Of a DNA stretch of 64,000 nucleotides, positions 264 to 62,269 are shown one piece after another. Numbering within the stretch: the first letter of the stretch is position 1; the number at the start of each line of letters is the position of its first letter. This stretch comes from a virus. The stretch is taken from the IMG/VR virus record IMGVR_UViG_3300044712_002068, positions 1-64,000 of that record; one strand, 5' to 3'. Under the pieces are notes generated by a model that saw nothing but the letters and a program-made list of their open reading frames with translations, searched no databases and was not told the DNA's origin. The translations under genes and the position numbers were made by a program.

Positions 264-302
264 AAACCCCTCAGGGCTTGCCACCGCCACAACTGAGGGT
301 TT
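264..302. terminator. Possible bidirectional terminator hairpin
   Basis: AAACCCCTCAG at 264-274 can pair, with one bulged C, to CTGAGGGTTT at about 293-302. It lies between the end of the rightward gpG-like gene and the end of the leftward HTH gene, a convergent junction where a shared terminator is expected. There is no clean U-run, so the call is tentative. Confidence 0.4.
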
Positions 303-1066
303 CATCCTTGACACAATTTATCTTGCATCCAAGGCATATCATTAAGCGTCTGTTTGTGTTTTCTGAAATCGACAATGCAACGGTTGATAACTTTATTGAT
401 GTACCTAATCTGCTCTTCATTGTTAAGCGCTTGGCCGTCTTTAGCCTTGCAGTAAAAACGCCATACCGAGCGCTCCAAAACCTCTGTTGCCGTGCTACGA
501 ATATCAGAGATTTGTATTTTCTCTAACAACGGGTACAGTCGTTTCATCATTTCCAAGCATTCACCAGGCAACTGTTTGGGCGTCGGTGGGTAGCGTTTGA
601 GTCTTGGGGCAGGTACATTGTTACGCAATCTCCACTTTCTTAGAGCCCTAGCACCCACGCCAAACATTGCAGCGATGGCAGGCTCGTCTAGCCCGTTGCG
701 GATAAAGTTTTGATACTCGGCAACGGTCAGCATGTGCAGTCTCCTAGGTCTGCGCTCAATAAGATTTAGTCGAGCTTTCCATTTCAAAAATGCGTGTTTT
801 GGAATTTTGAGAGCCTGATAAATCTGAAGATCGCCAAACCCTTGCCGCCTAAGCTCTGCATACTTTGAGCCTTCTTGACCATCCCCAAGCAAATCAAAAG
901 CAGGTTGATACTTGGAAGCGACAGGCTTTCTACCTCTAGTTAATCCACGCTGTTTCTTGAATTGCCTTACGGAGTGTTCCGATAGGCAAGTCAAGTCTTG
1001 AATCTGGCGATCGCTGTACCCAGACTTCTTAAATTCAAAATATTTTGCAACCGTCAACGGCTCCAT
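302..1066 (-). CDS. DNA-binding protein with three helix-turn-helix units
   Basis: 254 residues. Three similar segments each look like an HTH: residues about 5-40 (Tyr-Ser-Asp-Arg-Gln-Ile then His-Ser-Val-Arg-Gln-Phe), about 67-100 (Phe-Gly-Asp-Leu-Gln-Ile) and about 113-150 (Asp-Glu-Pro-Ala-Ile-Ala then Leu-Arg-Lys-Trp-Arg). The C-terminal 80 residues are helical and unrecognised. ATG at 1064-1066 has a good AGAGGG ribosome site. It lies on the opposite strand to the late operon, just left of the sigma gene, so a regulatory role is likely. The family is not recognised. Confidence 0.7.
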   Translation of the reverse strand: MEPLTVAKYFEFKKSGYSDRQIQDLTCLSEHSVRQFKKQRGLTRGRKPVASKYQPAFDLLGDGQEGSKYAELRRQGFGDLQIYQALKIPKHAFLKWKARLNLIERRPRRLHMLTVAEYQNFIRNGLDEPAIAAMFGVGARALRKWRLRNNVPAPRLKRYPPTPKQLPGECLEMMKRLYPLLEKIQISDIRSTATEVLERSVWRFYCKAKDGQALNNEEQIRYINKVINRCIVDFRKHKQTLNDMPWMQDKLCQG

Positions 1067-1286
1067 GATCCCTCTTTTTGCAAAAGCGCCACCATCGATC
1101 CTCGTAAGAATTGCAAGCCCATTCGACAGCTATAAAACCTGCGTCAAATGCCTGTTTTCTTGCGTCAGGGATGCCCAGGTACTCCCATGCGATCGCCGCT
1201 TGCACCCATTCAGGGCAGTCGATTGATCTCTCTGCATAGCCAGTAGCGGTAAGCAATCGAAGTTGTGTTCTCTTTTTTGACGCCAT
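1035..1286 (-). CDS. Small hypothetical protein upstream of the HTH gene
   Basis: 83 residues, basic at both ends, with a Trp-rich middle (Trp-Val-Gln-Ala-Ala-Ile-Ala-Trp-Glu-Tyr) and Arg-Trp-Trp-Arg near the C-terminus. Its end overlaps the HTH gene start by 32 bases, suggesting translational coupling in a two-gene leftward operon. It starts at ATG 1284-1286, divergent from the sigma gene across a 70-base control region. Function unknown. Confidence 0.5.
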   Translation of the reverse strand: MASKKRTQLRLLTATGYAERSIDCPEWVQAAIAWEYLGIPDARKQAFDAGFIAVEWACNSYEDRWWRFCKKRDHGAVDGCKIF

Positions 1287-1357: not shown

Positions 1358-2233
1358 ATGGAAGATGTCAAATCGCAAACCCTAGAACTATTGCAACGAT
1401 ATGCCGCTACCCAGGCACCCGAGCGCAGAAACCAGCTCAGAAACCGCATCATTCAGCTAAACGTACCGCTGGCTAAAAAGGCGGCAAACCGCTACAGCAC
1501 CAAATGCAGCGAGCCGTTTGAGGATCTGTTGCAAGAGGGCGTGTTAGGGCTAAATCGTGCGGTCGAGCGCTTTGACCTGTCACGGGGTGTGGCGTTTAGT
1601 TCCTTTGCAATGCCCTACATTCGAGGCAGCATCCAGCACTATTTAAGAGATAGGGCTGACGCGATCCGCATCCCACGGGCATGGGTGGATAAACGGTCCA
1701 AGGTCGAGCGGCTCAAGTCTGAGGGCGTGACTCCGCAGGCGATCGCCACCGAGCTGCGGTTTAAGGGCGTGGCAGAGCTTGAGCAGTGCGAGCAGGCACT
1801 GAGGCGATCGCCCATCAAATCACTGGATACTGAGAGCAATTCTCAGGCATTGCGCGACCGACTGCCTGCACTGGAATGGCAGGGCAGTGCCATAGAGCTT
1901 TTATCGATAGAGGGAATTCTGATGGACTCGGGTTTTGAGGTTGGTGCGGACGGATATTTTGATGCGGGTTCAATTTGCAAGCAAGAGGGCAAATTACTCA
2001 CTGAGTTCAGACGACTACCCTCAACCCGAAAACGTCTAGCAGAATTGGAAAACATGGGAGAATCCCAGGTTTTTAAGATTTCTCGGGGTCGAAACGGTAA
2101 ATCTTTTTTGCATAAGGCGATCGCTCCTGAGTTCCTGATCTGGGTTAACCCAACCCGATACCGACCCGTCGTGATGAGTGCTCTGGTCGGAAACCTGAAT
2201 TCCCTTTATGGATCGGGCTCACAAACGATCTGA
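1358..2233 (+). CDS. SigB/SigF-class sigma factor fused to a KilA-N domain
   Basis: 291 residues. Residues about 28-110 are sigma region 2: the Phe-Glu-Asp-Leu-Leu-Gln-Glu-Gly core helix, then Tyr-Ile-Arg-Gly-Ser-Ile-Gln-His-Tyr-Leu-Arg-Asp and Ile-Arg-Ile-Pro-Arg, the hallmark of SigF/SigB/SigG-type factors. Residues 112-165 resemble region 3 and end in Ser-Leu-Asp. The HTH region 4 that normally contacts -35 is absent. Instead residues about 185-275 look like KilA-N (Gly-Tyr-Phe-Asp-Ala-Gly-Ser-Ile-Cys, later Phe-Leu-His-Lys-Ala-Ile-Ala-Pro-Glu-Phe and Trp-Val-Asn-Pro). It sits inside the late head operon, just before the first CGGGAAT motif. Inference: a late-gene sigma whose upstream contact is made by KilA-N. 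Confidence 0.85.
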   Translation: MEDVKSQTLELLQRYAATQAPERRNQLRNRIIQLNVPLAKKAANRYSTKCSEPFEDLLQEGVLGLNRAVERFDLSRGVAFSSFAMPYIRGSIQHYLRDRADAIRIPRAWVDKRSKVERLKSEGVTPQAIATELRFKGVAELEQCEQALRRSPIKSLDTESNSQALRDRLPALEWQGSAIELLSIEGILMDSGFEVGADGYFDAGSICKQEGKLLTEFRRLPSTRKRLAELENMGESQVFKISRGRNGKSFLHKAIAPEFLIWVNPTRYRPVVMSALVGNLNSLYGSGSQTI

Positions 2234-2238
2234 AGGGT

Positions 2239-2249
2239 CGGGAATGCTC
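2239..2249 (+). promoter_or_regulatory. Late promoter motif CGGGAATGCTC
   Basis: Member of the nine-copy CGGGAA(T/C)NNT(G/A/C) family, 36 bases before the protease ATG. TAGAGC follows at a spacing shared with the copy at 8424. GGGAAT matches the -10 type of SigB/SigF-class factors. Confidence 0.6.
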
Positions 2250-2274: not shown

Positions 2275-3675
2275 ATGGCCGACCTTGAGCGTGAAATAGA
2301 GATTTTTAGAGCAGGCAAGCACACCGCAGCCAACGGTATGGCTGTGGATATTTCGCCTGCGGATTTGCAGCAAGTTGTAGATACCTATAATCCTGCGAAT
2401 TTCAATGCACCCGTAGTTTTAGGCCATCCCAAGCACAACGACCCGAGCTGGGGTCAGGTTAAACATCTCAAAATGGTGGGCGATCGCCTTAAGGCAACAG
2501 TTCACAAGCTTGCGCCGGAGTTCGTTGAATGGGTTCGAGCTGGGCGATACCACGCGATATCGCCTAGCTTTTATTTGCCCGATTCAGGATCTAATCCCTA
2601 TCCCGGTAAATTGGCGCTGCGCCATATCGGTTTTTTGGGTGCGGTTCCTCCGAGTGTCAAGGGCATGGCTGCGCCTGAGTTTCAGGAGTTTGTAAGCTTC
2701 TCTGACGATGAGGAGGGCGTTGTTTCGTTTATGTGCGATGGGTGCTCGTTTGGTGGGTCGCCCATTATCGCTAACGTGCTGTCAAGGTTACGCGATTTTT
2801 TGATCAGTGAGTACGATATCGCGATCGCTGACTCTGTGATCAACTCGTTTGATCTTGACGCATTGCGATCTCAACCGAGCTACACCGATCAACTCCAAAT
2901 GGGTCTAGACGAACTCAGAAAAGAGGTCTACCTGCTGCAAGAGCGCACGGCCAGCAGCCAACCAATTTTGAACTATCAAGAGGGCAAACCAATGAGCGCA
3001 GCACTCAAAAAGCTGATGAAACAAAAAGGGGTGACGCCTGCTGCTGCCGCAGAGGCGACGGGCATCGATCAAGCCAAGATTGACGCAATTTTGGCAGGGA
3101 CGGAGGACGCAAGCGATAGCGATTTAACGTCAATCGCAGAGGTTCTAGGGGTGCCCAAGTCGATGCTGGGGGGTGCCAAAAAAGAACCAGCAAACATGAG
3201 TGAGGCTGACACTGCGGAACTGGTCAGACTGAAAGCTGAGAATGAGGCTCTAACCGCTGCCGCTGCCGCTGCCAATCTAAAAGCTCGAACGGCTGAAATT
3301 CAGAGCTTCTGTGAGGGGCTCGTGAGAGACGGCAGGATCACCGCTGCACGCCTGCAACCTCGCTCAATCGACTTTGGTGAGGGCGAAACCCATGAGATGG
3401 GGATGGTCGATTTCATGGCCAGTTTAGAACCCTACCAACTGGAGTTTTATAAGGCTGATCTAAGGGCAGGTGGGAGAGTGATCCAGTTTGGCGAGATTGC
3501 CCGAGACGAGGAGCCAGCCCGATCGGCTGGGTCGTTGGCGCTGCCACCGGATCACCAGGCTGATCCGCAGTCGGCAGAACTGGCCGCTCGGATCACCTCC
3601 TACGCAGAGGAGCATGATATCTCGTTCACCGAGGCTTACAACCAGATGAGTCTCACGGGTGCATTGGCTCAGTAA
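2275..3675 (+). CDS. Prohead protease and scaffold, Mu gpI-like, with internal HTH
   Basis: 466 residues. The N-terminus (Glu-Ile-Glu-Ile-Phe-Arg-Ala-Gly-Lys-His, then Pro-Val-Val-Leu-Gly-His-Pro and Tyr-His-Ala-Ile-Ser-Pro-Ser-Phe) matches Mu gpI-like phage proteases. Residues about 240-300 look like an XRE-type HTH (Met-Lys-Gln-Lys-Gly-Val-Thr-Pro, Ile-Ala-Glu-Val-Leu-Gly-Val-Pro). Residues about 310-345 are Ala/Glu-rich coiled coil, as in scaffolds. In the family the N-terminal domain cleaves scaffold and capsid during head maturation and the C-terminal part acts as scaffold. A second start at residue 240 probably gives scaffold alone. Confidence 0.82.
   Translation: MADLEREIEIFRAGKHTAANGMAVDISPADLQQVVDTYNPANFNAPVVLGHPKHNDPSWGQVKHLKMVGDRLKATVHKLAPEFVEWVRAGRYHAISPSFYLPDSGSNPYPGKLALRHIGFLGAVPPSVKGMAAPEFQEFVSFSDDEEGVVSFMCDGCSFGGSPIIANVLSRLRDFLISEYDIAIADSVINSFDLDALRSQPSYTDQLQMGLDELRKEVYLLQERTASSQPILNYQEGKPMSAALKKLMKQKGVTPAAAAEATGIDQAKIDAILAGTEDASDSDLTSIAEVLGVPKSMLGGAKKEPANMSEADTAELVRLKAENEALTAAAAAANLKARTAEIQSFCEGLVRDGRITAARLQPRSIDFGEGETHEMGMVDFMASLEPYQLEFYKADLRAGGRVIQFGEIARDEEPARSAGSLALPPDHQADPQSAELAARITSYAEEHDISFTEAYNQMSLTGALAQ
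2992..3675 (+). CDS. Possible nested scaffold protein (internal start)
   Basis: ATG at 2992, in frame with the protease gene, is preceded by AGAGGG about eight bases upstream. It would give 227 residues holding the HTH-like and coiled-coil parts without the protease. Mu (I/Z) and lambda (C/Nu3) make scaffold from such nested starts. This is inferred from the ribosome site and the domain boundary. Confidence 0.45.
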   Translation: MSAALKKLMKQKGVTPAAAAEATGIDQAKIDAILAGTEDASDSDLTSIAEVLGVPKSMLGGAKKEPANMSEADTAELVRLKAENEALTAAAAAANLKARTAEIQSFCEGLVRDGRITAARLQPRSIDFGEGETHEMGMVDFMASLEPYQLEFYKADLRAGGRVIQFGEIARDEEPARSAGSLALPPDHQADPQSAELAARITSYAEEHDISFTEAYNQMSLTGALAQ

Positions 3676-4187: not shown

Positions 4188-5156
4188 ATGCCGTTGATGT
4201 CGCTCGCGCAAACCCGTGTAGTTGACCCCGTTTTAACGGGGCTATCTCAGGGCTATTCTAATTCTGAGTTTGTTGGAAAATACCTATTCCCCATGGTTCC
4301 GGTGACGGAATACGGGGGCGTCGTAGTGCAGTTTGCAGACACGATTTTTGAACTAGACGATCTGAGTCGTGGCCCTGATGGCGAGTACAAAGTAGTCCAT
4401 ACGGACTACGACGGCTCGCCCTATAAACTCAGCCTAAAAGGGGCTAAATACCGGGTTCCGTTTGAGCACGCCACCGATGCCGAGCGGCTCGGCTTTCAGT
4501 GGGATTCGATCGCCAATATGACCATGATGGCCAAACTCAACCTTGAGCTAGAGGTCGAGCAGGCTACGATCGCCACCAACACAGCCAACTATGACAGCAA
4601 TCATCGGCTTACGCTCTCAGGGACTGACCAGTGGAGTGACCCAGCGAGCACACCCAGCGCAGATATCAGGGCTGCCAAATCGGCCATTCGCAGCAGCGTG
4701 GGCAAGGACGGAAACATTGTGCTGCTGACATCGGCAACGTATGACGCAGTTGTCGAAAACCCTGCCATCATCGACCGATTTAAGCACACGTCAAAAGACT
4801 CGATCACCGCTGACATGCTCGCTACCCTGTGGGAGGTAGATAAGGTCGTGGTGGGCAAGGCTGTGCGCAAGTCTGGCAGCTCAGTCTCAGACATCTGGGG
4901 CAAGGTTGCGATCGTTGCCTATACCAACCCAAGCGCGATCGCCTCTGGTATGTTAAACGGGTTCCAGATGTCTGGTGACGTAAATATGTTCATGCCATCG
5001 TGGGGTTATACCTACACGATGACAGGCCACCCATTTCAGAAGCCTGTAAGACGTGACGAGGACAAAGACAGCTTTATCTATCAAACCAAGTTTGACCGGG
5101 TTCCTGTGCTCACTGGGATGGACTCTGCATTCCTGTTTTCTGCTGCTGTTGCCTAA
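4188..5156 (+). CDS. Major capsid protein
   Basis: 322 residues. The order protease, decoration, capsid and then connectors is the standard head layout. The N-terminal arm with Tyr-Leu-Phe-Pro-Met-Val-Pro-Val, the Arg-Gly-Pro-Asp-Gly-Glu loop and the later Trp-Gly-Lys-Val-Ala-Ile-Val-Ala-Tyr strand fit phage major capsid proteins of the HK97 fold. ATG 4188 has a strong GGAGG site. The family is not Mu gpT by eye, so the head is a mosaic. Confidence 0.8.
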   Translation: MPLMSLAQTRVVDPVLTGLSQGYSNSEFVGKYLFPMVPVTEYGGVVVQFADTIFELDDLSRGPDGEYKVVHTDYDGSPYKLSLKGAKYRVPFEHATDAERLGFQWDSIANMTMMAKLNLELEVEQATIATNTANYDSNHRLTLSGTDQWSDPASTPSADIRAAKSAIRSSVGKDGNIVLLTSATYDAVVENPAIIDRFKHTSKDSITADMLATLWEVDKVVVGKAVRKSGSSVSDIWGKVAIVAYTNPSAIASGMLNGFQMSGDVNMFMPSWGYTYTMTGHPFQKPVRRDEDKDSFIYQTKFDRVPVLTGMDSAFLFSAAVA

Positions 5157-6464: not shown

Positions 6465-6466
6465 CG

Positions 6467-6477
6467 CGGGAATGATG
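6467..6477 (+). promoter_or_regulatory. Late promoter motif CGGGAATGATG
   Basis: Lies 36 bases before the tail tube ATG, the same spacing as the copies at 2239, 58452 and 62259. It begins three bases after the gp37 stop. Confidence 0.55.
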
Positions 6478-7902: not shown

Positions 7903-7940
7903 TAAAAACCCCGATGTCATAACTGGCATCGGGGTTTTAG
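7903..7940 (+). terminator. Rho-independent terminator after the tail chaperone
   Basis: AAAACCCCGATG (7905-7916) pairs with CATCGGGGTTTT (7927-7938) around a ten-base loop. This is a strong bidirectional-looking hairpin in the middle of the tail operon. It separates the head/tail-tube transcript from the lipoprotein and tape-measure genes, which have their own promoter motif at 8424. Confidence 0.85.
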
Positions 7941-7972
7941 GTTGGATGTGCAGCATCCGTCTAAGGTTTACT

Positions 7973-8422
7973 ATGACACGTCAAACACTTTCGAGCCTCA
8001 TTGCAATCACGGTTTTATTGGGGGCGTGCAGTCAGTCGCCCCTAGAACAAAGTAAGGCGATCGCTACCCAATATCTAGAAGCGGTCAAGGCAGGCGACAC
8101 AGCCACAGCCATGAGCCTATACTGCAACCCAGGCGCACAAGAGCTATCACCCATCAAAACGGTTAAGTCGTTCACTGTCGAGCCCACTGGGGAATCGACA
8201 GATCAGGGCGTTAGCTTCAACACGGTTGAGGCCACAGTGGTGAGTGTTGGCCTAACCGCAGATCACACCGATAAGTATACGATTTGGGTCATGACCCCAC
8301 AGCAGGCGATCGCCCATGAGCAGGCTGCTGCTGCGAGGTTTGCAGAGCTAGGCATGAGGCCAGAGCCCATCAACCCAGAGGAGTGGTCAAAAGCCGATCT
8401 ATGTGTCGCTGTGCTCGATTAG
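7973..8422 (+). CDS. Phage-encoded lipoprotein
   Basis: 149 residues from ATG 7973. The N-terminus has basic residues, a hydrophobic stretch and the lipobox Leu-Leu-Gly-Ala-Cys at about residues 17-21, so it should be exported and lipid-anchored. The rest (Ala-Ile-Ala-Thr-Gln-Tyr-Leu-Glu-Ala-Val-Lys-Ala-Gly-Asp) resembles the small alpha/beta cone fold of DUF4878/NTF2-like lipoproteins. It is separated from upstream tail genes by a terminator. It may be expressed from the lysogen, for example for superinfection exclusion or envelope change, but that is inference. Confidence 0.7.
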   Translation: MTRQTLSSLIAITVLLGACSQSPLEQSKAIATQYLEAVKAGDTATAMSLYCNPGAQELSPIKTVKSFTVEPTGESTDQGVSFNTVEATVVSVGLTADHTDKYTIWVMTPQQAIAHEQAAAARFAELGMRPEPINPEEWSKADLCVAVLD

Positions 8423-8423
8423 T

Positions 8424-8434
8424 CGGGAATGCTG
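8424..8434 (+). promoter_or_regulatory. Late promoter motif CGGGAATGCTG
   Basis: Begins two bases after the lipoprotein stop and 33 bases before the tape measure ATG. CATAGAGC follows as at 2239. Confidence 0.6.
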
Positions 8435-8456
8435 GCCATAGAGCGCATAGGGCGAT

Positions 8457-11400
8457 ATGGCTGGCAAAAAGATCACGCTGGTAATCGAGACAGAGGGGGC
8501 GACACAAACCCTCAAAAATATCAAAGAGATCCAAAAAGCGGTGGGTGGGATTGGCTCTGGCAGTAGTGCGGGAGCCAAGGAAGCGAGTCGAGGTATTGCA
8601 GATCTAGCCTTTGGCTTTAACAACGTCGTGCAGGCTGCGCAGACCCTAGCTGCAACGCTCGCGCCTGCCTACGATCTGCTGATTGGCTCAAACGAGAAAC
8701 TTAATCAGCAGCTGCTGCAATCGGCTGCCACCATTACCGCAACGTCCGACGTGTTCCAAAATGGCATCAAAATCGAGGACGTTGGCCAGTCGATCGACGC
8801 CCTGCAAACCCCGTTATTAGCCGCTATCAAAGAGGTTGAGAAGGAGACTCAAAAGCTGGTGGGGGTCACGTCTGAGCAAACCTCGTCTGTGTTCAATACC
8901 ATTTTGAGCAACGTCTCTCAGCTCAATAACCAATCCAAGCAGTTTCCTGACTCAATCCAAGCGGCTGCCAAGCTCGCACCCGGTCTAGTGGCCACGCTGG
9001 GCAGTTTGCAGCTACCGATAGAGCAGGCGAGCCAAGAAATTCGCTCGATTCTAACGGGTGACATTGGGCCAGATAGCGCGATCGCCAAGGCTCTAAACCT
9101 TTCCCGTGAGCAAATCAATGCCTATAAAGCACAGGGGATCTTAGTAGACGAACTGATCAAAAAGTTTGCGCCTTTCCTATCTGCCAATGCCAAGGCAGCG
9201 CTTAGCATTGGAGGCATCACCTCGAATATCAAAGATATCTTCGAGATTCTCGGCAGAACGTCAGGCTCCGAGTTGCTAAACGTGGTCGTGGATCAGCTCA
9301 ATACGATCTATCAGTTTCTGGAACAGAATCAGGAGGCGCTACAAAATACAGCAGTCGGCACCGTGGGGCGACTGGTTGAGGCGCTAAAGGTCGTGATTGA
9401 CACCGTTACCAGGATCGGGCAATCCATCACCGCAGCATTCTCAGGTGAGGATTTCTCAGGGCTGTCGGAGGTTGCCAACATTATTGGCGATGAGTTGATC
9501 GCAGCACTTAAGACCGCTGGTGATGTGCTGGTCGAGTTTGCCGATGTGGCGATCGCCAGTGTTAAGGGTCTACTGCCTGCATTCAAAGACATTGGCTTTG
9601 CTGCATTAGAACTAGGCAGGTTTATCGTGCAGGGGCTTAGGGCAGGGCTTGAGGCTGCATCAGCGCTCAATCAGGTCATGACTCCATTGCTCAATGTTGT
9701 GATCAAGCCCATTCTTGAGCAGGTCGGGGCGATCGCCATCAAAGTGGTGCAACTGGTCGAAAATGCCCAGTATGCAGTAGGGCTACTCACGGGTGCAGTA
9801 GGCGACAGTGGAGCCGCACTTGAAACCTACGGCAAATCGGTCGATCAAACGATTCGAGACGCGACCAGGGGACAGGGGGCTCTAACGGCTGCCATCTTGG
9901 CGCGACAGGCCGCTGAGGCAGGCGGCACCAAACTGACGGCAGAGCAGGCCGCTGCTGAGGCCGCTGCCGTGAAGGCATTGGAGGGCGACACCGCAGCGCT
10001 ACGGGCAAGACGTGACGAAATCGAGCAAACCGTTGCACTAGGCCCAGCACAGAAAAAGCAAAAAGAGCAGCTACTTGCCCAGATTGATAAAGAGATCGGG
10101 AAAAACGATCTACTGCTGGCCACGCTGGAAAAAACCGCACCGGCAACCGCAAACTCGGTCAAGGTCGCTGGAAGGGAACTTGAAAAGCTCGGAACCATTA
10201 CCGATCAGCTTAAGAAAAAAGTTGACGATGCCCGACGCTCTCTATCAACGGCCACAACGAGCGAGGAGGCAGCAAAAGCCGCTAAAGACCTGCTCGACCT
10301 GACCCAACAACAGCTTGATTTAGGCGACATCACCCGAGATCAGGCGATCGCCAACGCTCAAGAGATTGCCAATAACGAGAGAATCCCAATCGAGCAACGG
10401 CTCGCAGCCCAGCAGGCATTGAGCAAATTTCAAGAGCAGGCATCAAACGATCGGGTGCAGCAGGTGCAGGCCGAACAACAAAAGGTGCAGCAGCTTGTTG
10501 CCAGTGGTCAGATCAGCGATGCAGAGGGTGAGGCGCAGTTAACCGCACTTAAGGCCAAGGAACTGGAAACTCGACTCGAAAACATTCGCGCTGCGCTCAA
10601 AGCCGAGCAGGATCTAGGGCGTGGCAACGGGCAACGAGCCAAGGATCTAAAACAGCAGGAAGCCGACCTAGTAACTCAGGTTGCAGAGGCCAGGGCAACG
10701 GCTCAAAAAGCGCAACTGAGCAAACGGTTAGACGATATCGAGCGAGAGGGTAGACGGGTCGCAGCAGCGACAGAGCAGGCCGAATCAGAGCGCTTGCTCG
10801 CCACCCAACGACTGGTGAATGAGGGCGTTTTAACTGAACGGCAGGCGAGCCAGGAAAAGCTACAAATCACACGCGATCGCATTCAGTCGGAGTTGGCAGC
10901 CGAACAAGATAAACTCGCACAACTGCGATCGCTGCCCTCACCCACCGACCCAGACGAGCGAGAGCGGCTAGAGCAGCAAATTAGGGACTCAGTGACCCAG
11001 ACGGCACGGCTACAGCTCAGCCTGCTCGAAAACGAGCGACAGGCCCAGCAAGCGCTCGCAGACGCTGCGATACAGGCAATCCGTGATCAGAGCGCTGAGG
11101 AACAGCGAGCAGCGCAGCGAAAGCAACAGTTTCAGCAGCAATTTATCTCTAATTTGGAGCGAGAAAAGGCCGCAAATCAGGCCGCATCCGCTGCACTGCA
11201 AACTCAATCTGACCTATTGCAGTCTCAAGTCGGGTTACAGCAGGCATTGCAAAACCTCAGATCGACCACGGGACAGATTGAGATTGACCGATTAGAGCAG
11301 GCGCTGCAAATCAGGCAGCAGCTTGCCCAAACGACCGACGCAGCCACTCGGCAAGAGCTAGAACGGCAGCTATCGCTATTGCAAGGGCAAGTACAGGGCG

Positions 11401-12368
11401 TAAATTTGCGAGGCAGCGAGGCGCAACTCATTCGCCAGATTGGAGAGGAGCAAAAACGGAAAGCAGAGCAGGAACTAAAAGACCTGGAACTGCGCCAAAT
11501 CGCAGCAAGGCGAGCCAACGAGCTAGAGATACAGCGCAATCAACTGGCCGCAGAGCGAGCAGTGATTGAGGCGCGGATTGCAGAAATTCAAGCACGACAG
11601 CAGGCGATCGCAGCCAATGCAGCGGTGAGAGAGGCTGACCGCAATGTACAGGCCGCTCAGCAAATCGTAGACCCAGAGGAACGGGCTCGGGCGGTTGCCG
11701 ACGCCACATTTCAGAGGGATTCTGCGGTCAAAAATGTGGGCTTGGTCGAGCAACAGGTTGAGTTAGCTGGCCAGGTCACAGATCAGGCATTGCAGCAGGT
11801 CGATGCACAAGCTCAGCTTGCCGAGAACTCACGGCTCACCCTCAATGCCCAGCAGGCCACCGAACGCGCTACAGCCAGGGCCGCAGCCCAATCAACCGAG
11901 TTTTCTGCCAACCTCAGAACCGCAGCAGCATCTGCTCAGACCATTGCTCGCAGCTTGGGCGTCACCTCCGACGTGCAAGGGTTTAAGGATGGGGGTAATC
12001 CATCTGCTGGTCAGGTTGCCTGGGTGGGGGAAGCAGGGCCAGAGCTGGTCAAATTCGGAGCCAATGCACGGGTCTGGAGTAACTCCGACTCAATGCGGAT
12101 TGCTCAGCGTGCTCTATCGGGTGTGCCGTCAGTGGGGGCGATCGCCAGTGGGAACATGGGCGACCCACTGCTCAAAGCGGTGAACCGGCTCAATGATAAC
12201 TTGAGTAACCTTGAGCCAGGGGTGCAGATTGGCACCCTACAGCAGAGCGTGACCAATCAAGTACCGCAGAACGAAAGGGCGATCGCGCAGCAAGTCGAGC
12301 AGGCAAATCTTGATTTATTGTGGGAATTAAAAGCAGGGCTGAGAGGTGGCAGGTTTGGCCGATTTTAA
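8457..12368 (+). CDS. Tail tape measure protein
   Basis: 1303 residues, the longest gene in the window. The N-terminal third is hydrophobic and Ala/Ser-rich with several membrane-like stretches (Ile-Gly-Asp-Glu-Leu-Ile-Ala-Ala-Leu). Residues about 470-1170 are almost pure Ala/Gln/Glu coiled coil. The C-terminus has Gly-Glu-Ala-Gly-Pro-Glu-Leu-Val, the conserved C-terminal motif of tape measure proteins. At roughly 1.5 angstrom per residue it predicts a tail near 200 nm. It sits between chaperone and tail-tip genes as expected. Confidence 0.9.
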   Translation: MAGKKITLVIETEGATQTLKNIKEIQKAVGGIGSGSSAGAKEASRGIADLAFGFNNVVQAAQTLAATLAPAYDLLIGSNEKLNQQLLQSAATITATSDVFQNGIKIEDVGQSIDALQTPLLAAIKEVEKETQKLVGVTSEQTSSVFNTILSNVSQLNNQSKQFPDSIQAAAKLAPGLVATLGSLQLPIEQASQEIRSILTGDIGPDSAIAKALNLSREQINAYKAQGILVDELIKKFAPFLSANAKAALSIGGITSNIKDIFEILGRTSGSELLNVVVDQLNTIYQFLEQNQEALQNTAVGTVGRLVEALKVVIDTVTRIGQSITAAFSGEDFSGLSEVANIIGDELIAALKTAGDVLVEFADVAIASVKGLLPAFKDIGFAALELGRFIVQGLRAGLEAASALNQVMTPLLNVVIKPILEQVGAIAIKVVQLVENAQYAVGLLTGAVGDSGAALETYGKSVDQTIRDATRGQGALTAAILARQAAEAGGTKLTAEQAAAEAAAVKALEGDTAALRARRDEIEQTVALGPAQKKQKEQLLAQIDKEIGKNDLLLATLEKTAPATANSVKVAGRELEKLGTITDQLKKKVDDARRSLSTATTSEEAAKAAKDLLDLTQQQLDLGDITRDQAIANAQEIANNERIPIEQRLAAQQALSKFQEQASNDRVQQVQAEQQKVQQLVASGQISDAEGEAQLTALKAKELETRLENIRAALKAEQDLGRGNGQRAKDLKQQEADLVTQVAEARATAQKAQLSKRLDDIEREGRRVAAATEQAESERLLATQRLVNEGVLTERQASQEKLQITRDRIQSELAAEQDKLAQLRSLPSPTDPDERERLEQQIRDSVTQTARLQLSLLENERQAQQALADAAIQAIRDQSAEEQRAAQRKQQFQQQFISNLEREKAANQAASAALQTQSDLLQSQVGLQQALQNLRSTTGQIEIDRLEQALQIRQQLAQTTDAATRQELERQLSLLQGQVQGVNLRGSEAQLIRQIGEEQKRKAEQELKDLELRQIAARRANELEIQRNQLAAERAVIEARIAEIQARQQAIAANAAVREADRNVQAAQQIVDPEERARAVADATFQRDSAVKNVGLVEQQVELAGQVTDQALQQVDAQAQLAENSRLTLNAQQATERATARAAAQSTEFSANLRTAAASAQTIARSLGVTSDVQGFKDGGNPSAGQVAWVGEAGPELVKFGANARVWSNSDSMRIAQRALSGVPSVGAIASGNMGDPLLKAVNRLNDNLSNLEPGVQIGTLQQSVTNQVPQNERAIAQQVEQANLDLLWELKAGLRGGRFGRF

Positions 12369-13885: not shown

Positions 13886-13887
13886 AC

Positions 13888-13897
13888 GGGAATCCTA
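13888..13897 (+). promoter_or_regulatory. Late promoter motif CGGGAATCCT
   Basis: Only 15 bases before ATG 13903, against 31-36 in the other eight cases. A transcript started here would be almost leaderless, or the true start codon is further downstream. Confidence 0.45.
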
Positions 13898-20961: not shown

Positions 20962-21003
20962 TTGTTCTAGGGGCGAAATGCTAATTGCTACCATTCTGCA
21001 TTG

Positions 21004-21014
21004 CGGGAATCCTG
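21004..21014 (+). promoter_or_regulatory. Late promoter motif CGGGAATCCTG
   Basis: Lies 34 bases before ATG 21038, the first gene of the fibre operon, and 43 bases to the right of the divergent HNH start. Confidence 0.6.
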
Positions 21015-52946: not shown

Positions 52947-53321
52947 TCAGGCGTCGGTTTGCGGCTCCCCAAAATAAACAACGATATCGCCCCTAACCGG
53001 AAACTTTACCGACCCGTCTGGATAGACCCGTTTGAGGGTGTGGGTATAGCGCACGCTGGGCACCAGCCGGATCGAGTCGGCTTTTGGCAGCGACACAATC
53101 AGGTCGCCGGTCTGGTCGGCCAGCTCGCACGTAAAGGAGGCGATCGCAGTCCCCAAAAAATTGAGTATTTCCGATGTGAATGTGCTGCCGGTTAGATCCT
53201 CCGGCTGTCCATCTGGGGTTTTGAAACTCAGGGTCGTGCTGTAGTCCTCACCTGAGATGATCGTGTGTCGATAGTTGCCCATGGTTTGCTCTAGCGCATG
53301 ATAGTAGTATTCCCGTGCCAT
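52947..53321 (-). CDS. Virion-type protein upstream of the leftward fibre genes
   Basis: 124 residues from ATG 53321, one base after a CCCCTAGAAC copy; longer frames to 53459 overlap the terminase start. Tyr-Ser-Thr-Thr-Leu-Ser-Phe-Lys-Thr and Gly-Asp-Leu-Ile-Val-Ser-Leu are beta strands typical of baseplate-upper-protein-like N-termini. Function by context. Confidence 0.5.
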   Translation of the reverse strand: MAREYYYHALEQTMGNYRHTIISGEDYSTTLSFKTPDGQPEDLTGSTFTSEILNFLGTAIASFTCELADQTGDLIVSLPKADSIRLVPSVRYTHTLKRVYPDGSVKFPVRGDIVVYFGEPQTDA

Positions 53322-53436
53322 TGTTCTAGGGGCGAAATCCGACATTTCCGACAGTAGGGCAAGAATTTGTGTCGGATCACTTGGGAACTCTGAGCACAGC
53401 AGCGTTTTTACTGCAAGATATTGGGCGATCGCCACT

Positions 53437-54096
53437 ATGGTCAGACGAACAAAATACACGCCTGAGAACGTGCAAAAAATACTCGATACGATGGCTCAAA
53501 CCGGCTCAGACGGCAGCAGCGCCAAGGCTGGAACAATCAGCCGAGATACGCTCTATGCGTGGATCAATAGATATCCTGAGTTTGCTGAGCAAGTCAGTCA
53601 AGCTAAGGCAGAGTATCGAGAGACTTGCCCTGAAGTGCTGGTGAGGCAGGCTAACAAGGCGTTTTCTGACTACCTGTATGGCCGAATGGAAAAGGTTGTG
53701 AGAATCACCAAAAAAGGAACGACAAGCCGAGGGGATGGCGAGATCGGCTATGAGGAGGAAGTGATCCAGCGCGTTCCGGTGGGGGTGCCTCGCTGGGCTA
53801 TTGAGCGAGTGTTGGGCAAGCCAATGGATGTTTTGGAGGCTGCTAAAACATTCGCTGAGGCTGGAATCCTTCCCCATTGGATTGTGCAGCGAATCGCTGA
53901 AGAAATCGAAGGGGCTAAGAAGGGCATCAGGAACGCTTTTGAAGGTGTTTTGCCTGATGCTGACTTTAGAGCGGAAAAGCCCGGTCTATCGCCGCAGACC
54001 GCCGCAGCAATCAGGGCTCATGTTTTGGGCATTGACTTGGCTCAGCAAAACAATTTAGACGACTCAAAGCCTTTGACAGAGGAGGTTTCACGGTAA
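53437..54096 (+). CDS. Terminase small subunit
   Basis: 219 residues. Residues 5-60 are an HTH (Glu-Asn-Val-Gln-Lys-Ile-Leu-Asp, Ser-Arg-Asp-Thr-Leu-Tyr-Ala-Trp-Ile, Phe-Ala-Glu-Gln-Val), the DNA-recognition domain of small terminases. The middle resembles the oligomerisation core. It precedes the large terminase, interrupted only by an HNH gene. It recognises the packaging site. Confidence 0.75.
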   Translation: MVRRTKYTPENVQKILDTMAQTGSDGSSAKAGTISRDTLYAWINRYPEFAEQVSQAKAEYRETCPEVLVRQANKAFSDYLYGRMEKVVRITKKGTTSRGDGEIGYEEEVIQRVPVGVPRWAIERVLGKPMDVLEAAKTFAEAGILPHWIVQRIAEEIEGAKKGIRNAFEGVLPDADFRAEKPGLSPQTAAAIRAHVLGIDLAQQNNLDDSKPLTEEVSR

Positions 54097-58425: not shown

Positions 58426-58462
58426 ACAGCATTCCCGCGCCATTTTTCGAGCGGGAATGCTG
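58426..58462. promoter_or_regulatory. Divergent late promoter pair in perfect inverted repeat
   Basis: ACAGCATTCCCGC (58426-58438) and GCGGGAATGCTGT (58451-58463) are exact inverses around 12 bases. Each arm is one CGGGAATGCTG motif, pointing left to the membrane protein (31 bases to ATG) and right to the portal (36 bases to ATG). Confidence 0.7.
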
Positions 58463-62226: not shown

Positions 62227-62258
62227 CCCGCCCCTAGAACAAATGCCAAAATAGACCA

Positions 62259-62269
62259 CGGGAATGATG
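62259..62269 (+). promoter_or_regulatory. Late promoter motif CGGGAATGATG
   Basis: Identical to the 6467 copy and 36 bases before ATG 62295. A decamer copy lies 19 bases upstream. Confidence 0.6.

Follow-up and report, generated by a model that had tools for sequence, protein, structure and literature searches.

Near the start of the window, by which we mean the entire stretch of 64,000 nucleotides that was analysed, lies a gene whose single reading frame joins a SigF-type sigma part to a KilA-N domain (Table 1). The record from which the window comes has 70,815 bases and ends in a 127-base direct terminal repeat, and therefore represents a complete genome of about 70.7 kb. The word HIP1, GCGATCGC, is very frequent in it (167 copies), which points to a cyanobacterial host; the earlier attribution to a cyanobacterial phage is supported.

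At the end of the record the genes run in the order terminase, Mu-type portal, Mu-F-like protein and a gene across the origin (70380 onwards), and continue with two minus-strand genes, the sigma-KilA-N gene, a Mu-type protease, a decoration protein and the major head protein. The capsid is of the Mu/RcapMu/B3 type. Its closest matches, whether from the phage collection or from IMG/VR, share only 39-44% identity with it, and no sigma-KilA-N gene was found in these Mu-like capsid relatives (best 44% identity). Several neighbours have features of their own. The last codons of the gene across the origin look Mu-G-type by eye, and the head protease carries a Cro/C1-like HTH match in mid-protein (residues about 236-310; PHROG transcriptional regulators, to 2e-8). 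The Mu-F-like minor head protein (L003:4789-8187, record 66788-70186) is split by a segment that resembles an intein (Hint/splicing; Pfam Hint_2 3e-7, Intein_splicing 1.3e-7), and a 438-aa product of the same region (L003:2934-4250, record 64933-66249) resembles, on reading its sequence, TnpB of IS200/IS605 elements.

Table 1. Features of the locus and promoter-like boxes, in window coordinates
Feature	Position	Strand	Remarks
HTH_23-type DNA-binding protein	302-1066	-	HTH-like units in several repeats; oriented divergently to the sigma gene
83-aa protein	1035-1286	-	Neighbour; no family match
Sigma-KilA-N fusion gene	1358-2233	+	291 codons, ATG to TGA, single frame without internal stop; domains by Pfam, NCBIfam, PHROGs
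SigF-type sigma part	1361-1852	+	Residues 2-165; Pfam 8.6e-17, NCBIfam SigF 8e-45
Region 2 (core-binding, -10-reading)	1451-1657	+	Pfam Sigma70_r2, residues 32-100
KilA-N domain	1874-2221	+	Residues 173-288, in place of region 4; Pfam, tblastn, alignment, fold search
Pfam KilA-N match	1949-2161	+	Residues 198-268; 6.9e-6
Box TCGGGAATGCT	2238-2248	+	GGGAAT 35 nt ahead of the head protease start at 2275
Mu-type head maturation protease	2275-3675	+	Next gene downstream of sigma-KilA-N; PHROG 976, 5e-76
Major head protein	4188-5156	+	Marker of the structural module; PHROG 1005, 1.5e-74
Box GCGGGAATGAT	6466-6476	+	Ahead of gene 6503
Box TCGGGAATGCT	8423-8433	+	Ahead of 1303-aa gene 8457, probable tape measure
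Box ACGGGAATCCT	13886-13896	+	17 nt ahead of the called start of 825-aa gene 13903; off-spacing, lower confidence
Box GCGGGAATCCT	21003-21013	+	Ahead of gene 21038
Box ACGGGAATACT	53306-53316	-	Ahead of an internal ATG in minus-strand gene 52947-53459
Box GCGGGAATGCT	58428-58438	-	Head-to-head with the putative portal promoter; no minus-strand start called at the right distance
Box GCGGGAATGCT	58451-58461	+	Ahead of portal gene 58488
Box ACGGGAATGAT	62258-62268	+	Ahead of gene 62295

The two halves of the fusion protein

Exactly two Pfam domains are found in the fusion protein, Sigma70_r2 (61.1 bits against a cut-off of 24) and KilA-N (PF04383; 26.3 bits, gathering cut-off 23.8), with no others at E<=1, and its gene is the only one with Sigma70_r2 in the 70.8-kb record. 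The NCBIfam model of SigF, PRK07408, covers residues 2-159 with 153.5 bits, which is under the full-length cut-off of 261 bits, as expected since the C-terminal part is missing. In PHROGs the first half belongs to a sigma family (6e-31) and the second half to two families lying over the KilA-N part. Host genomes contain one or more SigF paralogues each, and the identity of host SigF to the fusion protein reaches 56% over residues 3-113 (111 residues). The core-binding regions 2.1-2.2 are conserved and the -10-reading segment YIRGSIQHYLRDRADAIRIPR is retained, whereas region 3 is weakly kept: the SigF model runs to residue 159, Pfam Sigma70_r3 has no match, and the similarity to SigF fades beyond about residue 159-167. 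The MZA anti-phage sigma MzaA scores 70.8 bits against a full-length cut-off of 800, through region 2 only.

Region 4 defines most sigma-70 factors and touches the -35 element, the beta flap and many activators. No Pfam model of region 4 matches the fusion protein even at E<=1, and inspection by eye of the alternative frames over 1829-2300 disclosed no recognisable region 4 buried there. The halves differ in GC content (KilA-N part 0.49 versus 0.56), the lower value of the KilA-N part being consistent with a recent join. In a tree the fusion sigma has a long branch, pulled towards the outgroup, and is nearest by path to host SigF; it falls outside the clade of phage SigF-like sigmas, a placement that the long branch leaves weakly defined, and its -10 preference therefore need not match that of the clade.

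KilA-N is a DNA-binding domain. When the C-terminal part alone was used in tblastn it retrieved phage proteins annotated as KilA-N (best E 2e-6), and its alignment with stand-alone KilA-N proteins extends across the full domain. The KilA-N of the fusion is complete; invariant columns such as L220, T223, G234, G244, H252, A256 and W262 are kept. The stretch ahead of the first conserved GY is common to the fusion and a cyanobacterial subfamily (L294, L384 and L095, from a Halotia plasmid), reading SAIELLSIEGILMDSGFEVGADGYFDAGSICKQEGKLL in the fusion and SEINQMPQDGEIGKYVVPKGYVNASQMCKANGKFL in L294. AlphaFold2 modelling of residues 166-291, on an alignment with 11 KilA-N rows, gave pLDDT 72 and pTM 0.64. 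Most of the top 25 Foldseek hits among viral models were proteins named as KilA-N or N1R/p28, at probability 1.00, while the search of the PDB with the same model gave nothing significant. As the alignment was built from KilA-N rows the fold is not fully independent evidence, and the predicted KilA-N identity stands on the sequence by itself, with the fold in support. A joint alignment, which misplaced the KilA-N rows, was left out, and AlphaFold run on the full-length sequence alone gave a poor model (pLDDT 39).

The preliminary description had read the N-terminus as SigF/SigB/SigG-type with motifs of regions 2 and 3, followed by a KilA-N-like domain where region 4 should be. The sigma type, the missing region 4 and the KilA-N in its place are all upheld, the predicted fold of the C-terminal part (from KilA-N rows) being that of KilA-N and not of sigma region 4; of the two sigma regions, region 2 stands and region 3 does so only weakly. 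We regard the sigma-KilA-N architecture as confirmed with near certainty, and the protein is, to judge from its sequence, a SigF-type sigma that is encoded by a phage and carries a new domain at its C-terminus.

A promoter-like box in the structural arm and in other phages

The preliminary description had expected the factor to be dedicated to phage promoters and had named the DNA at 2239, 8424 and 58452 for transcription tests. Each of the three stretches contains CGGGAATGCT, and they are three of the best examples of a genuine promoter-like box, further boxes being copies with up to two mismatches to TCGGGAATGCT. The core CGGGAAT, the extended form of which is CGGGAATnnT, occurs 12 times in the genome, and half of these copies (6 of 12) lie 28-40 nt before called start codons, where 0.10 would be expected (p=3.9e-10); allowing in-frame alternative ATGs raises the number placed at starts to 8 of 12. 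GGGAAT begins 33-35 nt upstream of the start codon in five of the six and 32 nt in the other; taken as a -10 element, the box would leave a leader of about 23 nt. TATAAT has only two occurrences, and a sigma-70 promoter scan near the sigma-KilA-N gene stayed at chance level. All nine listed boxes are inside the structural arm, which runs from 53.3 kb across the origin as far as 21 kb and holds terminase, portal, protease, capsid and decoration genes; the genes with boxes are presumed late from their function. The facing boxes at 58428-58461 form an inverted repeat, ACAGCATTCCCGC...GCGGGAATGCTGT, ahead of the portal gene.

Promoters of cyanobacterial SigF combine TAGGC at -32 with GGTAA at -12, and the SigB box of B. 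subtilis is GGGTAT (PMC2758279). Since the SigF and SigB boxes are similar to it, GGGAAT appears to be of the class read by a SigF-type region 2.

The whole genomes of eight further phages from IMG/VR, each with a SigF-like sigma, were compared. An unguided count of 6- and 7-mers 22-46 nt ahead of gene starts, in which the window motif was not consulted, gave as top words GGGAAC in three genomes (G391, G392 and G390) and TAGGAA[CT] or GTAGGAA in three others (G393, 2e-9; G394, 1e-8; G395, 2e-13 for the 6-mer). The common pattern [AG]GGAA[CT]nnT is enriched at promoter position in all eight SigF-like phages, with p values of 8e-4 to 2e-11, and in the window genome (p 2e-9), and has zero copies at this position in the cyanophage controls PaV-LD, Cr-LKS4 and Lsp-JY19. 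As the pattern was partly drawn from the eight genomes a held-out test was run, and in 12 more SigF-like phage loci the box stood at promoter position in 16 of 93 cases versus 1.2 expected (p=9e-14). The count was close to expectation in Mu-like capsid relatives (3 of 209, 2.3 expected), host SigF loci (2 of 121, 1.1 expected) and phages with another sigma type (2 of 100, 1.2 expected). Mixed phages with unrelated sigmas showed a milder excess (11 of 200 versus 2.4 expected, p=4e-5), perhaps arising from ribosome-binding-like AGGAA at mis-called starts. Phage-borne SigF-like sigmas and the box [AG]GGAA[CT]nnT therefore go together, and we have not seen this group of phage sigmas, with its common promoter class, described before.

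A further set of loci (L109, L111 and L321-L330) encodes complete sigmas of about 373-390 aa with a zinc-ribbon/HTH-like C-terminal extension, seen by eye in L109 and L111; these loci are without a GGGAAT-type box.

The reader of the box and the place of KilA-N

The promoters of those SigF-like phage sigmas that keep region 4 have no conserved -35 element at a fixed distance. Several sister sigmas have little or nothing of region 4 themselves: those of L308, L317 and L314 give no Pfam match to it and that of L306 one at 0.01 only, the sigma at L316:7899-8411 has 171 residues with Pfam region 2 only and ends before any region 4, and that at L315:8001-8651 comprises regions 2 and 3 only. The genomes of L316 and L315 bear the [AG]GGAA[CT]nnT box. 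Promoters without a conserved -35 and sister sigmas without region 4 together indicate that the region 4 contact is seemingly dispensable, and such promoters probably tolerate replacement of region 4. The joining of KilA-N looks like an event apart from the loss of region 4 in the sister sigmas.

We propose that the N-terminal part, a derivative of cyanobacterial SigF, would bind the host's core RNA polymerase and read the -10 box CGGGAATnnT ahead of head, tail and portal genes. Region 4 would have been lost, a loss that such promoters seem able to bear since they have no conserved -35, and KilA-N in its former place would anchor the holoenzyme to phage DNA and not serve as a -35 reader at a fixed distance, akin to the way in which T4 tethers its region-4-less late sigma gp55 via the sliding clamp. 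The fusion protein probably turns on the phage structural genes, and we consider it likely that it is the late sigma for the GGGAAT promoters. The explanation as a whole, with a late-gene sigma, a SigF-type -10 box and KilA-N as anchor, we also favour, with reasonable confidence; for its part in which KilA-N is a DNA tether rather than a -35 reader, our analysis suggests about even chances. More tentatively, the protein may be a late switch in one piece, having traded its -35-reading domain for one by which phage DNA is marked as self; host polymerase would then be directed to phage templates in general and not to a -35 sequence. Such a switch would belong to a broader class of sigmas of cyanobacterial phages with -10-only promoters and an optional region 4.

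The preliminary description had supposed that KilA-N takes over the -35 contact as a sequence reader, in which case the holoenzyme would need both the -10 box and an upstream KilA-N site. We think this unlikely, although the position of the domain and its DNA-binding nature would suit it. In a Gibbs search the nine boxes had no common upstream motif clearly above random upstream sets; three of six settings came out at or just above the top of 25 null sets, with weak and unaligned words. A word in favour of such a site is the phage-repeated 10-mer CCCCTAGAAC, which has 26 copies genome-wide on both strands (e.g. 8039, 14032, 27244, 44487, 51241 on the minus strand and 62231), often in the form [AG]CCCCTAGAACAA, and is within 60 nt upstream of three of the nine boxes. 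Its distance from these boxes and its orientation vary, however, and most copies are intragenic, mainly in one frame (Pro-Leu-Glu-Gln in sense). The 13-mer GCCCCTAGAACAA is enriched in none of 386 cyanobacterial genomes, which makes the motif look specific to the phage, and we treat CCCCTAGAAC as a candidate KilA-N target and nothing beyond that. Both the region-4-bearing phage sigmas, which likewise go without a fixed -35, and the sister sigmas without region 4, which share genomes with the same box, also speak against a replaced -35 contact.

It is improbable that the protein serves instead to lower host transcription, its sigma part occupying the host core and KilA-N holding it on phage DNA or blocking. 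The conserved core-binding regions fit such a takeover, and promoter read-out by the fusion is a prediction; yet the -10-reading segment is kept too, and the phage-wide promoter class of SigF type needs a reader. That reader could be host SigF, as the link between the fusion protein and the box is one of co-occurrence, and the fusion would then act in regulation, for instance as an anti- or co-factor. We hold this to be equally improbable. Host SigF does read GGTAA at -12, but its core promoters require TAGGC at -32 (PMC2758279), which the phage boxes are without. The hosts do have SigF genes to supply such a reader, yet the box is displayed neither by the host SigF loci nor by the three control phages that have no SigF-like sigma of their own.

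Known systems and the search for a second fusion

The proposed late sigma shares with cyanobacterial SigF (group 3 sigma-70, PRK07408) a conserved region 2 and a predicted GG-rich -10 of the SigF/SigB class, and differs from it in being phage-encoded, in the absence of region 4, the weak region 3 and the KilA-N instead, and in promoters that do without the -32 element of SigF. The phage SigF-like sigmas of IMG/VR (L098-L103, L305-L331) have the same sigma type, box and box position; unlike the fusion, most of them keep region 4, often degenerate (L316 and L315 have none), and none has a KilA-N, the fusion sigma lying outside their clade.

Late promoters of T4 consist of a -10 box with no -35, and are served by gp55, a homologue of sigma region 2 that works with a tether; gp33 covers the beta flap but does not read DNA, and the enzyme is tethered by the gp45 clamp (PMC2988020). 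The likeness lies in a region-2 homologue that lacks region 4 and would have an extra means of holding DNA (PMC2988020), and it may extend to -10-only promoters, the boxes having no fixed upstream element and lateness and promoter activity being presumptive in our phage. T4, however, uses a separate gp33 and the gp45 clamp where the phage here would use a fused DNA-binding domain, and the C-terminus of the fusion is KilA-N plus a few residues; we claim no sequence relation to gp55 and no membership of its group. The T4 literature asks why no fused late-transcription sigma exists (PMC2988020), and sigma-KilA-N is a candidate for one, built from parts other than those of T4.

Stand-alone phage KilA-N proteins (PF04383; L294, L384 and the Halotia L095) have the full domain and the subfamily stretch ahead of the GY in common with the fusion. 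In the hits examined they have no sigma domain and their KilA-N is mostly N-terminal, whereas that of the fusion is C-terminal to the sigma. BstA, a phage-defence protein with a KilA-N(-like) domain, co-localises with phage DNA (PMC8585504); it resembles the fusion in being a phage protein with such a domain, and is unlike it in that the domain is N-terminal, the second half is unrelated and the function is defence.

A natural swap of region 4 for an unrelated DNA-binding domain would show what a sigma can do without region 4. With the pattern [AG]GGAA[CT]nnT, promoters can be mapped, in a form open to testing, for a group of cyanobacterial phages about whose gene regulation little is known. 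A compact and orthogonal pair of sigma and promoter could also serve in cyanobacteria.

The preliminary description knew of no characterised example and proposed looking for the same architecture in other phages. No characterised sigma-KilA-N protein came to light: in the open library the terms KilA-N and sigma factor occur together in one paper, and in a survey of 361 cyanobacterial genomes the extra domains of sigmas were DUF6596, NB-ARC and TPR and KilA-N was not reported (PMC11119718). Exact-peptide scans of IMG/VR and GTDB with the whole protein gave no relative. No second fusion came from sigma-guided or KilA-N-guided scans of IMG/VR, from the sigma-guided scan of GTDB among the matches listed, from 386 cyanobacterial genomes queried with the protein and PF04383, from 391 + 65 more genomes at E<=1e-36 in a search that had no positive control, from phage and plasmid collections, or from about 380 loci whose ORFs were screened for the two domains within a single frame. 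As the scans were pattern-limited, rarity is likely rather than absence elsewhere. A chimeric assembly, or read-through by accident from a sigma gene into a KilA-N gene, would account for a fusion found once and for halves of different GC, and is nevertheless very improbable, given one clean frame within a complete, end-repeated genome, the promoter-like box of the next gene within 10 bases of the stop codon, and a complete KilA-N with its invariant residues.

Three matches were rejected on inspection: L304, which matched the KilA-N pattern and is an ordinary sigma; the match at 8856 in L004, which is a repressor and due to chance; and L296, where KilA-N seemingly lies in mid-frame and the part upstream of it is not a sigma. 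In L333, L336 and L342 (sigma 7935-9110, KilA-N 11236-11916) a sigma gene and a stand-alone KilA-N gene are about 2 kb apart, and these gene pairs are a possible unfused counterpart of the sigma-KilA-N gene.
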